Shown here piece after piece: positions 24,397-37,123 of a stretch of 37,344 nt of DNA. The translations under genes were made by a program, and so were the position numbers. The notes below the pieces were generated by a model that ran no database searches, was not told the DNA's origin, and saw only the letters and a list, made by a program, of their open reading frames with translations. The stretch spans positions 1 to 37,344 of the forward strand of contig MGWZ01000056.1 in the NCBI GenBank assembly GCA_001801175.1. Reading direction: 5' to 3'. Each line of letters opens with the position of its first letter. The stretch's first letter is position 1. This DNA is from Gallionellales bacterium RIFCSPLOWO2_02_FULL_57_47 (GTDB taxonomy: Bacteria; Pseudomonadota; Gammaproteobacteria; Burkholderiales; Gallionellaceae).

Positions 24397-24494
24397 CCCC
24401 TCCCCCTTGCAGGGGGAGGGCTAGGGTGGGGGTAGAGTCTTGGCATCTCTACAGTTCTACCCCCATCCTAACCTTCCCCCTGCAAGGGGGAAGG
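24397..24494. repeat. long inverted repeat of two palindromic units
   Basis: CCTCCCCCTTGCAGGGGGAGGG-CTAGGGTGGGGGTAGA and its inverted partner TCTACCCCCATCCTAACC-TTCCCCCTGCAAGGGGGAAGG face each other across about 20 bp. Each unit is itself a hairpin. This intergenic repeat style (CCCCTTGCAGGGG with a GGGTGGGGGT tail) is widespread in beta- and gammaproteobacteria. Confidence 0.8.
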
Positions 24495-28536: not shown

Positions 28537-28599
28537 TCCTAAAGTAAAGGCAAGAGGCGCGCCGCTATTGGCGCGTCCCGATTGACCACAGGTTGGGGC
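28537..28599 (-). other. attC-like recombination site
   Basis: On the minus strand, GCCCCAACCTGTGGTCAATCGGGACGCGCC is a good R''-L'' half, closely patterned on the common CCTAACAATTCGTTCAAGCCGACGCG. AATAGC forms the loop, GGCGCGCC the returning arm, and TTTAGGA a decayed R' box. It lies between two cassette genes, with the next ribosome site overlapping its 3' end. Confidence 0.55.
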
Positions 28600-33069: not shown

Positions 33070-34674
33070 TTATTCGGGTCCCTCAGAAGGAATCTGGAAT
33101 AACGCCCCGAGGTTGATGCTCCCATGCGCTGCGGGGTCCTGGGGATTTTTGGTGCCGGGAACCCCCGGATGAAGGTTGGAAGCCGTGTCATCGGGCGGGA
33201 ACAGCACCAGCGTAGACAGGAATTCCAGCAGCTTCTGGCGGTCATTGTCGCTCAACCGTGCGAATGCTTTCCTGGCCGCTTGGGCCTCGCCGCCATGCCG
33301 CAGGATCACCTCTTCCAGACTGATGCTGCGCCCATCGTGGCCGTACGGCGCGGTGGTGGCGACACCCCAAAGCGGCTCCGTCATGAATTGCTTCTGCACA
33401 GTCCCGTCATAGTTACGCTCGTGGAACTCCGGGCCCAGGTCATGCCGTTTGAAGTCTGCGAAGATGTCTCGGACCAGAAAAGACTGTTGCTTCGGCAGGA
33501 GTTTCGGATAGGTTTGGCCGTCATTCACGACTTCAAAAAGCGTGGTCGCTGTGGCAAACAGGCGGTTGAAGATTCCCCGCACCGGATCGAAGCCTGTCTC
33601 GACATCAGCCACCCGGCGGTCGTGCTCGATGCGCAGGTTCTGCACATGGCACGAGGTGCACCCGATTCTTTGCATTACCCGCAGCCCCTCTCGCGTGCGG
33701 TTGGTGGTCCGGCCAGTTGCCGGCCGGAAATAGTTCAGCAGATAGAATTCAAGGTGGTCGACCAGCGCACCGTCAATCTCGTTGATAACCCCATCACCAT
33801 CGCCGTCGTCTTCCGGGCTGCACACTGGCGGGCGCCTGATCTTGTCCAGCGCCGGGTCCAGCACGAGGCCGGCGGGAGTAATTGCCGTTGCCGGCTGGTT
33901 TGGGTCCGTGGCCCTGCACAGGACCGGGTCTGGCGCCTCCAGCCCCATCTCGTCCTTGAGGGCGCCGACATCGAACGCGCGCATCGAAAACTCTCCGCCG
34001 TGTGCAAAAAGGGGGCGAACGCGCAGGTCCGGGTTGACTCCATCGACCTGCGAGGTATCCACCTTGCCGCTTGGCAACGCCGTGACAAATCCGAACTTGA
34101 TCCGCTTGCTTGTCAGCGGCAGGGTCACCGGGTGTGACGAAGCAGCCGCTTCGGCAAGCGCCTTTGCGCGGATGGCGCGCAGCTCATGCGTGATCTCGTC
34201 GGCAAGCATCTCGACCAGTCCGAGTCCGAACAAGTGCGGCGCGTTTCGGCTATCAGGCCGGGTTGCCACTTCGCCGCCTGCTCCGGCCGAGCCCCGGGGC
34301 AGTCCGTGACACGCAGCGCAGCTATCCGTGAGGCCGGCGCCAAGCGCCGGGTTTTTGTGGATGTCACCGGAAGAGTCTCTGCTGACCCGCGGTCCTTGTC
34401 CTTGGTCAAGCGTGAATTTCCGCTGGAAGAGTTGCCGGCCGCGGCGGACCGAGCGCGCCGGATCCCTTTTTATCAGGTAAATCGAAGACCCCGGCGTAAA
34501 TTCGTCACCGCGACCCGCACCGATCTGTTGGGTCAGGGATTTCCCGATCGCGCCGCCTGGCACATGGGGTGTCGTTTGAGTAACATCCGTCAACTCGGCA
34601 CGCGCCTCGGTACCCGCCAGGGAGCAAACGAAACCGAAGAGCCCTATTGATATAAGCCTGAGTTTTGATCGCAT
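33070..34674 (-). CDS. diheme oxidoreductase (DHOR family, c-type)
   Basis: This is a secreted protein of about 534 residues with a Sec signal (LISIGLFGFVCSLAGTEARA) and two heme c sites: CAACH in DSCAACHGLPRGSAGAGGE (about residue 120) and CTSCH in RIGCTSCHVQNLRIEHDRR (about residue 340). The spacing and C-terminal cytochrome-peroxidase-like region (PLWGVATTAPYGHDGRSISLEEVILRHGGEA) fit the DHOR/thiol oxidoreductase family. It is periplasmic; its donor and substrate are unknown. The ATG at 34674 begins the signal; the ORF-track start at 34716 lies inside an attC-like site. It is unusually large for a cassette gene. Confidence 0.88.
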   Translation of the reverse strand: MRSKLRLISIGLFGFVCSLAGTEARAELTDVTQTTPHVPGGAIGKSLTQQIGAGRGDEFTPGSSIYLIKRDPARSVRRGRQLFQRKFTLDQGQGPRVSRDSSGDIHKNPALGAGLTDSCAACHGLPRGSAGAGGEVATRPDSRNAPHLFGLGLVEMLADEITHELRAIRAKALAEAAASSHPVTLPLTSKRIKFGFVTALPSGKVDTSQVDGVNPDLRVRPLFAHGGEFSMRAFDVGALKDEMGLEAPDPVLCRATDPNQPATAITPAGLVLDPALDKIRRPPVCSPEDDGDGDGVINEIDGALVDHLEFYLLNYFRPATGRTTNRTREGLRVMQRIGCTSCHVQNLRIEHDRRVADVETGFDPVRGIFNRLFATATTLFEVVNDGQTYPKLLPKQQSFLVRDIFADFKRHDLGPEFHERNYDGTVQKQFMTEPLWGVATTAPYGHDGRSISLEEVILRHGGEAQAARKAFARLSDNDRQKLLEFLSTLVLFPPDDTASNLHPGVPGTKNPQDPAAHGSINLGALFQIPSEGPE

Positions 34675-34687
34675 ATATCCACCCGAT

Positions 34688-34795
34688 GCTTTCGTTTGAT
34701 GGCGGCGCGCTTTCACGCCAGCATTAGGTGCTTAAGCACCAATGATGTCGGGGAAGACCCTTGCGATCTTTGCCCTCTGGAATGCGGGGTCGGCT
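34688..34795 (-). other. long attC-like site, copy A of a three-copy repeat
   Basis: The core matches copies B and C: on the minus strand AAAGATCGCAAGGGTCTTCCCCGACATCATTGGTGCT, a small loop, then AGCACCTAATGCTGGCGTGAAAGCGCGCC. The outer boxes are weaker than in B and C (R'' GCCGACC, R' CGAAAGC). It lies directly before the DHOR signal-peptide ATG. Similarity to copy B continues for about 65 bp into the upstream cassette's 3' end (to about 34865). Confidence 0.55.
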
Positions 34796-34890
34796 GGATG
34801 CGTGATTGCACAACCTGATCCGCGCAACCTGCTGCTTTAGTTTAAACACGTAATGCGAAGCAGACTTCTTTTTTTCGAATTCGTTCAATT

Positions 34891-35494
34891 CTACCGGCCT
34901 TCGCGGCCTGACAGGTACATCTTGCGCAGCCACCGCTCGCGCTTTCGTCCGTCCGGTGATTCGACGAGTCCTACCAAGTTTTCTCTGACAGGACCAAGGC
35001 CGCTAAGGCTGAGCGTGTTCTTCTCCGGGTGAGGACGAAAAAACCATCGATAGATGAACGCCGGCATTTGCATGGTGATGACGATGCGAGCGGTCTTGCC
35101 CTTTAAGGCTTTCCTCTGGTTGAAGTACGAAAAGAACCCCAGCGGCTCACCTGGTTTGGCATCGGGAAAGATGAACGCAGGCCGAAACGTCTGTTCAAGG
35201 AACCCTTTCAGGATCGCCGGCATCGCGCCATTCCAAATGGGAAAAAGCATGACAACATGATCGGAACGGGCGATGACGCCCTGTGACTGCAGTATGGCTT
35301 CCGGAGGCACCCCGCGCTGGTCTTCCCTGCTTAGCAAGAGGGGGAAATCCAGCCGGGCAACTGATAACCTGGACATCGTGTCCGGCCTCGTTAGCGCCCT
35401 TCGCATAGGCTTCCGCAAGGGCATGGCAGAAATGGTCGCTTTGGTGATCCGGGTGCCCCTGGATGATCACAATATGCCTGGATTCATGTCGCAT
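34891..35494 (-). pseudogene. frameshifted NAD(P)H-quinone-oxidoreductase-like flavoprotein
   Basis: The N-terminus (HIVIIQGHPDHQSDHFCHALAEAYAKGANEAGHDVQVI) in one frame and the rest (VARLDFPLLLSRED...SDHVVMLFPIWNGAMPAILKGFLEQTFRPAF...GRKRERWLRKMYL) in another together make one flavodoxin-fold (flavodoxin_2/NQO-like) protein of about 200 residues. The shift lies near 35362-35372, where GHDVQVIS should run into VARLDFP. It is either a real single-base mutation or a sequencing error. If intact it would reduce quinones or similar compounds. It lies between attC-like sites. Confidence 0.75.
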
Positions 35495-35512
35495 GATTTA
35501 CCTCAGCCCTGA

Positions 35513-35574
35513 GTGTGACGCGTTCGAGTGGCGCTGGGCTTTCCGCAAAACATGGAGCACCGGCCTGGTTGGCC
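35513..35574 (-). other. attC-like recombination site
   Basis: On the minus strand, GGCCAACCAGGCCGGTGCTCC is a fair R''-L'' half, a loop follows, and CCCAGCGCCACTCGAACGCGTCACAC is an L'-R' half with the shared ACGxGTCA pattern. It begins just after the stop of the membrane protein gene and ends before the flavoprotein start. Confidence 0.5.
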
Positions 35575-35580
35575 GCCATG

Positions 35581-36240
35581 TCAGGCGTTCGCGGAAACAT
35601 GGCGATGTTTGTCAATCCAGTAACCCCAAAGGACCAACAGCCATTGGAGTTGCCCCAGCCACGCAATGGCCTCGGTACTTGGAGGCGGAGCACCCAACAG
35701 GTTGCCAGCATAAACCCCTGTCAAGAAGACCACCAGCGCGACCAATCCCCACCGGCCAGTAGCGTCGTTGGGCGTTGTCGCGCGGCAATATAACCAGACA
35801 CCGAATGCGAACAACGTGCCTTCAATGGCTACTGTAGCGGGCAGCGACGACCAGACATTCAGGCCAACGAATGTGGCCGTACCGGGAAACAACGGCAGGT
35901 CCGGTTGATGAACAATAGCGTCGAGCGCCCAATGGCTGATGACGAGAGTTCCGAGGACAAACGCCGCAATGCGTTTCCGTTTCAATGCGAAATGGATACC
36001 GCCCACCAATACCGCCCAGCCAAGCACAGCAATCAGACTATGAGAGATGGGGTAATGCTCGAAAACCAGAGGGGTGACAACGGTTGCGCCAGGAACGATG
36101 CGGACCGTCTCCACGCCAAGCAGCAAAAAGGTAGGCCACAGCAGATCGATAAACTGGGCGGCGATAAACAGGGAGCCCAGAGATACTTTCGAAGCGACTG
36201 CTTTTGCGCCGAATCCAACACCGAAGTGGCCAATAAACAT
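35581..36240 (-). CDS. polytopic membrane protein, possibly YdjM/metal-dependent-hydrolase-like
   Basis: This 219-residue protein has about six transmembrane stretches: FIAAQFIDLLWPTFLLLGV, SHSLIAVLGWAVLVGGIHFAL, AAFVLGTLVISHWALDAIVH, TVAIEGTLFAFGVWLYC, WGLVALVVFLTGVYAGNLLG, and LQWLLVLWGYWI. The start MFIGHFGVGFGAKA, with conserved His at position 4, then YPISHSL and SHWALDAIVHQPD, resembles inner-membrane proteins annotated as metal-dependent hydrolases (YdjM-like), but I am not certain. The start at 36240 has a perfect AGGAGG that overlaps the 3' end of attC copy B. Confidence 0.75.
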   Translation of the reverse strand: MFIGHFGVGFGAKAVASKVSLGSLFIAAQFIDLLWPTFLLLGVETVRIVPGATVVTPLVFEHYPISHSLIAVLGWAVLVGGIHFALKRKRIAAFVLGTLVISHWALDAIVHQPDLPLFPGTATFVGLNVWSSLPATVAIEGTLFAFGVWLYCRATTPNDATGRWGLVALVVFLTGVYAGNLLGAPPPSTEAIAWLGQLQWLLVLWGYWIDKHRHVSANA

Positions 36241-36248
36241 GGGATACC

Positions 36249-36363
36249 TCCTCACGTTCAAATTGAGTGGCGGCGCGCTTTCACGCCAGCATTAGGTGCT
36301 TCAGCACCAATGATGTCGGGGAAGACCCTTGCGATCTTTGCTCTCTCGAATGCCGGGTTAGGC
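36249..36363 (-). other. long attC-like site, copy B
   Basis: R'' is a perfect GCCTAAC on the minus strand, followed by CCGGCATTCGAGAGAGC (L''). The shared core hairpin CATTGGTGCTgaAGCACCTAATG follows, then GCCACTCAATTTGAACGTGAGG as L'-R'. The outer arms pair imperfectly. Similarity to copy A extends past R'' to about 36434; copy C shares only the core. Confidence 0.65.
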
Positions 36364-36490
36364 TGGATGCGTGATTGCACAACCTGATCTGCGCGACCTA
36401 CTGCTTTAGTTTCAAAAAGTAATGCCAAGCCGACCACTTTAGTACCGCCGTTGGCTCCCCGGTTGAGAGAAGGATCAGGCAGCATCGCTC
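36364..36490. other. short cassette tail without a recognised gene
   Basis: This is 127 bp between attC copy B and the flavin-oxidase stop. The first about 70 bp repeat the tail found beside copy A. The 75-aa ORF of the track (36258-36485) crosses the attC site and lacks a ribosome site. Confidence 0.4.
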
Positions 36491-36967
36491 TTAGCCTTCG
36501 CTCAGCACCTCTGCCAGAACCTCGGGCGAAATCGTTGTGGCCTGGGCAAACCCACCGACGAAACGAATTGAACGCGGCATTATTACGAATAACGAGAAGT
36601 CGGAAAAACCGAACATCGCGGCGCTCTGGGGAAACCTTGCCAGGTACGCAGCCTTGGCCTCGGCATGGCCTTGCGTGGACTCAGCGTATTGCACAGCCTG
36701 ACCTTGTATCGTGACGCGTGCCAATGCCTGGGCGGGGAGTTCGGGCTTCGGCGGCGCAACAACCAGGACACTCACTTGTGGACTTAACAACATGTCCCTG
36801 GTGTGGGTCGCGAGATGGCTGACATGAATCACGAGGCCCAAGCCGCCGGGAAGAATGGCGTAGGGCACCATGGAAACATACGGCTCGCCCTTGTGAAGCG
36901 TTCCAAGAGAGGCTACTTGCTGTGTTCGCAGCAGCTCGCGAAGTGTCTGGGCGTAGGCGGGAGTCAT
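36491..36967 (-). CDS. pyridoxamine-5'-phosphate-oxidase-like FMN-binding protein
   Basis: This 158-residue protein has the split-barrel flavin-binding fold. ELLRTQQVASLGTLHKGEPYVSMVPYAI is the start of the barrel. IHVSHLATHTRDMLLSPQVSVLVV and ALARVTIQGQAVQYAEST follow, and the late segment FSDFSLFVIMPRSIRFVGGFAQATTI resembles the HugZ/PPOX-like heme-utilisation group. The reaction is unknown, possibly flavin-, F420- or heme-dependent. The ATG at 36967 has no strong ribosome site. It is flanked by attC copies B and C. Confidence 0.85.
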   Translation of the reverse strand: MTPAYAQTLRELLRTQQVASLGTLHKGEPYVSMVPYAILPGGLGLVIHVSHLATHTRDMLLSPQVSVLVVAPPKPELPAQALARVTIQGQAVQYAESTQGHAEAKAAYLARFPQSAAMFGFSDFSLFVIMPRSIRFVGGFAQATTISPEVLAEVLSEG

Positions 36968-37003
36968 CAGTGAGGTGTATGGCTGGTCGGCACTTGGACT
37001 GCT

Positions 37004-37123
37004 GCCTGACGCCGAGATAAGGAACGGCGCGCTTTCACGCCAGCATCAGGTGCTTCAGCACCAATGATGTCGTGGAAGACCCTTGCGATCTTTGCGGCAT
37101 CCCGCTTAACCCACGGGTTGAGC
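37004..37123 (-). other. long attC-like site, copy C
   Basis: On the minus strand, GCTCAAC (R'') is followed by GTTAAGCGGGATGCCGC (L''). The shared core AAAGATCGCAAGGGTCTTCCACGACATCATTGGTGCTgaAGCACCTGATGCTGGCG follows, then GCGCCGTTCCTTATCTCGGCGTCAGGC (L'-R'). L'' and L' pair well although their sequence differs from copies A and B. Confidence 0.65.

Follow-up and report, generated by a model that had tools for sequence, protein, structure and literature searches.

The window, by which we mean the whole stretch of 37,344 nucleotides analyzed here, carries toward its end a run of minus-strand genes that are separated by three related repeats, sites C, B and A in reading order. A cassette-like gene resembling pyridoxamine-phosphate oxidases (36491-36967; Pfam PF01243 and PF13883) lies between sites C and B, and a membrane protein gene with weak similarity to YdjM (35581-36261; PF04307 with E=4e-5, under the curated cut-off) directly follows site B. 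Site A comes directly after a flavodoxin-fold oxidoreductase (34891-35494) and directly before a di-haem oxidoreductase-like gene (33070-34716; PF06537). The flavodoxin-fold oxidoreductase is split into two overlapping frames that both match PF02525, probably through a frameshift or an assembly error. The three repeats extend over 34700-34790, 36268-36358 and 37022-37112 and share a 23-nt core on the minus strand (34722-34744, 36290-36312 and 37044-37066) with 0-1 mismatches. This core did not appear in any of 100 shuffles, and its three copies cannot be attributed to chance. The first-pass annotation had described three attC-like sites here with a shared hairpin core and divergent arms, and these are indeed present.

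The genome that contains the window encodes a full-length integron integrase, IntI, on contig C79 (488.6 bits against a cut-off of 265). The intI gene adjoins a cassette that terminates in the short attC CCCTAACCCTACGCTCAAGCGGGACTGCGC-AAAA-GCGCGCAGCCCCTTAGCTCCACGTTGACG, which has the empty loop GCGCAAAAGCGC and scores 77.5 bits. A covariance model of short attCs (R1), trained on nine of them from Gallionella, places attCs on eight of the genome's contigs, those outside the window including C42, C65, C71, C79, C101 and C119, and the ordinary short attCs of the genome are of one homogeneous type. In the window itself, a short attC without insert was detected at 28537-28598 on the minus strand, in the same orientation as sites A to C (43.4 bits, E=7e-10), which shows that cassette sites reach beyond the three copies. 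Contig breaks occur beside attC sites in this genome (C71:90, C42:77, C119:82 and the end of C101), so that the integron array is evidently fragmented in the assembly and the true array may be larger.

Model R1 also matches site B (36249-36363, minus strand; 19.8 bits, E=0.005) and, marginally, site C (37004-37123, minus strand; 13.7 bits, E=0.3), in both cases with a 57-nt unit taken as a loop insertion, and gives no match to site A (34683-34794, minus strand), a degraded attC. Neither site B nor site C forms a full attC hairpin when folded by energy alone. Judged against the boxes RYYYAAC for R'' and GTTRRRY for R', sites C and B fit in R'' (GCTCAAC and GCCTAAC) and deviate in R' (GTCAGGC and GTGAGGA), and site A fits neither, with GCCGACC as R'' and an unrecognizable R'. 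The arms of site C are mostly complementary and the right arm of site B is intact; the L'' arm is partly missing in site A and similarly shortened in site B. In agreement with the claim that pairing is retained in C, this site keeps 8 of 9 L-stem pairs as against 4 of 9 in A and 5 of 9 in B, the mean for short attCs being 8.5 of 9. Together with the position of the sites between same-strand genes in a genome with intI and short attCs, the matches of B and C bear out the proposal that the three sites derive from attCs and mark the boundaries of gene cassettes.

Sites A and B have a further ~80 bp in common upstream (34785-34871 and 36354-36440), despite the different genes that precede them (flavodoxin-fold and pyridoxamine-phosphate-oxidase-like, respectively), and this points to a cassette 3' end that was duplicated or gene-converted. 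Given this shared stretch and the shortened L'' arm, the two probably arose by copying of a single degraded site and, without part of one arm, would probably be poor recombination substrates.

The conserved unit of the three sites is exactly 57 nt long (AGATCGCAAGGGTCTTCCCCGACATCATTGGTGCTNAAGCACCTAATGCTGGCGTGA) and runs from AGATCGC to GCGTGA on the minus strand at 34713-34769 in site A, 36281-36337 in site B and 37035-37091 in site C. It opens with the head hairpin AGAYC-GCAA-GGGTCT, continues with a TCCCC linker and another hairpin, and closes with GCGTGA as its tail, a plan that can be written AGATCGCAAGGGTCTTCCCC-hairpin-GCGTGA. Records with the same core are mostly from Gallionella, a genus of iron-oxidizing bacteria, and we extracted 15 distinct insert-bearing attCs, which are not fully independent, as A and B share a deletion and the two sites a and b of genome G017 share a left arm and the insert. 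The unit is inserted exactly at the apex of a short attC, in the loop GCGCAA^AAGCGC, with GCAA preceding it and AAGCG, or this motif with one base changed, following it. This is supported by a relative (G014) in which one array holds intI together with both an empty and a filled attC, the arms of the two sites being identical except for a few substitutions. The empty site reads CCGGACTCCGCAA|AAGCGCGGAGCCGGTTAATT (L082:6728-6790) and the filled one CCGGACTCCGCAA-insert-AAGCGCGGAGACGGTTAATT (L082:5290-5467), revealing a precise insertion without target duplication. A further element of 58 nt and the same design is nested in four attC inserts (one each in G014 and G106 and two in G011), precisely within the head loop of the first element (GCA^AGG) and again without duplication. 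Other long Gallionella attCs (122-124 nt; L170:2932-3053 and L195:1835-1958) have a different, unrelated-looking variable terminal structure (VTS).

The same element plan is found outside integrons. The initial 20 nt and the final 6 nt of the core are met again at non-attC loci in other Gallionella genomes, where free elements, mostly 57 nt in total, occupy dozens of such positions and share the head AGACCGCAAGGGTCTTCCCC and the tail GCGTGA or a similar one, with different second hairpins (e.g., GCACAACTAAGGGGC..GCCCCAAGTTGTTGC). Up to 15 head matches were counted per genome, and the element folds compactly, with z-scores of -4.5 for the free and -3.0 for the attC type. The two-hairpin unit is a short, dispersed, imperfect palindrome as REPs are; a terminal GTAG or CGTC tag is absent from its ends, and we therefore call it REP-like. 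Nesting within hairpin loops is likewise seen among the free elements (L113 and L123).

Several identities and modes of movement were considered for this element. Filled and empty sites differ by the insert alone, and the terminal inverted repeats and target duplication of a MITE were not found. Y1 transposases are encoded in 17 of 20 genomes tested, and none of ten loci examined was clearly flanked by the element, so that we do not claim a RAYT as its mobilizer. A general targeting of hairpin loops by free copies was not supported, since flank complementarity is near background and most copies lie in AGGATTC/GGATTG-like tracts; clear cases of insertion into a loop are limited to the attCs, the nested copies and a single locus in Methylophilaceae. 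As a separate observation, the tracts that hold free elements (L074, L110, L115, L123 and others) are iterations of AGGATTC/GGATTG/GGACTG, a second repeat class of Gallionella, and excising the element restores the tract register. In the window, a 39-nt inverted repeat with 90% complementarity (CCCTCCCCCTTGCAGGGGGAGGG...) at 24398-24494 resembles another dispersed palindromic repeat.

The element type found in the window, with a CATTGG hairpin, has a much narrower distribution. A fourth core copy lies on contig C58 (21929-22000), and a genome-wide search with up to 3 mismatches gave no copy beyond these four. Among 158 genomes of the family, the CATTGG hairpin occurs only in attC sites or their remnants, and neither a free copy of this type nor a direct donor was seen in the Gallionella genomes searched. 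A scan of 399 genomes of the order found the CATTGG core in the window's genome only and the head motif beyond Gallionella in just two genera of one other family; the core was absent from the viral contigs scanned. In the window's genome the head motif is confined to attCs, so that insertion in this particular lineage is not demonstrable. A Methylophilaceae MAG carries a CATTGG-type element between GCGCAAT and ATTGCGC (L087, JADGRN010000047.1, ~60-150) without recognizable attC boxes, which reflects either a transfer or a misbinned contig.

The first-pass annotation had set two outcomes against each other, namely that copies of the core found always at cassette ends would point to a species-specific attC family and that copies found widely outside cassettes would indicate an unrelated REP-like element. 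Each proved right in part, given that a REP-like repeat is inserted in the attC tip. Each of the genome's four copies sits in an attC setting; the core, however, is not a species-specific attC motif serving the integrase but a member of a REP-like family. Conversely, head and tail do occur at many non-attC loci of other Gallionella genomes, whereas the sites themselves are still attCs and the CATTGG hairpin keeps to attCs and their remnants. That the attC resemblance is accidental and the element has nothing to do with integrons is extremely improbable, as the presence of the family outside cassettes must be weighed against the intI gene and attCs of the window's genome and against the filled sites of G014 and G017, which carry full R'' and R' boxes in cassette arrays. 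A lineage-specific attC family of the ordinary kind, comparable to the Vibrio VCRs, in which one long attC was amplified with its cassettes and has a uniform core because it is recent, would agree with the restriction of CATTGG-type cores to attC sites and remnants, and vertical spread with cassettes must have contributed, as the two G017 sites indicate. We nevertheless consider this explanation unlikely on its own, because core head and tail occur in free repeats, near-identical empty sites exist, and simple descent predicts arms that are as alike as the core.

The arms, which in an attC are usually what is conserved, are in fact far more diverse. Mean pairwise identity among the 15 filled attCs is 93.5% in the core and 66-67% in the arms, so the insert spans many attC backgrounds and the arm diversity of the genus; the arms of 45 short attCs, at 73-75%, are more alike than those of the filled sites. 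Moreover, the two arms of a filled site no longer covary. In short attCs, arms pair in 381 of 405 cells compared with 305±7 after permutation, whereas filled-attC arms pair in 97 of 135 cells compared with 94.9±3.2 (p=0.30, z=0.7). Lack of power does not explain this null result, since subsamples of 15 short attCs gave a mean z of 5.9 and never less than 4.2. The suggestion that the arms had been remodelled is thereby upheld.

It could be argued that a conserved core beside drifting arms marks a functional module under purifying selection, such as a protein-binding or regulatory palindrome, and the core is indeed strongly conserved and in the window it lies immediately before the start of every gene that follows it. 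That position is however normal for an attC, the free relatives keep head and tail and exchange the hairpin wholesale, the core of G002 has an internal deletion, and the region has no Rfam match other than a chance one, all of which makes such a function very unlikely.

Decay is a more serious contender. If the sites were inactivated by the insert and drift of their arms followed without any exchange, partial loss of the L'' arm in A and B and the deviating R' boxes would be expected, and decay clearly contributes to arm mismatch in these two sites. Part of the mismatch elsewhere may also be plain decay. As the whole explanation we find it doubtful, given that neutral drift would wear the core at an equal rate and that the discordant arms are not random but recognizable sequence of another attC type. 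Three filled sites (G003_C141, G027_C27 and G011_C107) join a G-type arm to a C-type arm, in both directions, compared with 1 of the 45 short sites so classed; the right arm of G003 is 88% identical to a C-type short attC and the left arm of G011_C107 reaches 92%. Similarly, a GGCGCT variant of the core is found with both left-arm types. Left and right arm distances of filled sites correlate weakly (r=0.35), which indicates that the exchange is partial. Recombination through the shared insert is the best account of the unlinked arms, and arm exchange rather than decay alone appears to lie behind the mismatches.

We contend that these sites are likely attCs belonging to a chromosomal integron of Gallionella, that a 57-nt REP-like element invaded their apical loop, the VTS, and that arm exchange and partial decay followed. 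The element sits precisely where GCGCAA and AAGCGC meet in the loop of a short attC, without target duplication, and empty sites, dispersed relatives and nesting point to transposition as its mode of movement. An attC works as a folded single strand (PMC2727003). The integrase reads the R and L arms and their unpaired bases rather than the tip, so the site could tolerate the insert, which would be carried along with the cassettes. By analogy with VCR2/1, in which VTS replacement altered attI integration just 1.6- to 2.4-fold (PMC2727003), an insertion at the tip is expected to be tolerated. The insert would in this way become a long identical patch common to many attCs, and recombination or template switching through it could swap arms, leaving a uniform core between arms that come from different attCs and are often unpaired. 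Such mismatched sites presumably recombine less.

It can be speculated, as a tentative extension, that long attC VTSs generally derive from dispersed palindromic repeats, in that single-stranded hairpin tips serve as targets, every insertion makes the attC longer and leaves the integrase unblocked, and shared tips drive arm exchange that makes new attC combinations or kills sites. Whatever its generality, an attC with a REP-like insert in its tip is a real and explainable variant. As empty, filled and doubly filled sites and a free donor-like family are all visible in one genus, the origin of a VTS becomes testable here. The arrangement also offers a route for unlinking attC arms, by which cassettes could become fixed in their array or new types of attC could arise, and it cautions that a conserved attC centre need not mean function.

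Searches of open-access papers for attC together with REP, and for Gallionella integrons, found no report of this arrangement, and it is best viewed beside the systems that it resembles in part. Like the attCs of sedentary chromosomal integrons, such as the VCRs of Vibrio cholerae, the Gallionella sites have R''/L''/L'/R' arms, a position at cassette ends and an integrase gene in the genome, and a long VTS is possible in both. Unlike in VCR-type attCs, the long VTS is a dispersed repeat that also exists outside attCs, empty sites are visible, and the arms of filled sites have ceased to covary. With REPs, BIMEs and TnpA-REP systems the element shares its nature as a short, dispersed, imperfect palindrome that is modular and nested or composite, and REPs inserted within palindromes are on record (PMC3733652). 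The Gallionella element differs from REPs and BIMEs in having no GTAG/CGTC tag and no associated transposase found, and in its target, an integron recombination site. Elements of the IS1397 type insert into the loop of a dispersed palindrome, the REP, whereas the Gallionella insert has no coding capacity and is a palindromic repeat in its own right. Group IIC-attC introns and IS1111-attC insertion sequences use the folded attC as an insertion site and are autonomous elements of 1-2 kb. An association of group IIC introns with integrons is mentioned in the literature (PMC7923331). In contrast to these introns and insertion sequences, the Gallionella insert is a non-coding hairpin element of 57 nt that sits in the apical loop.
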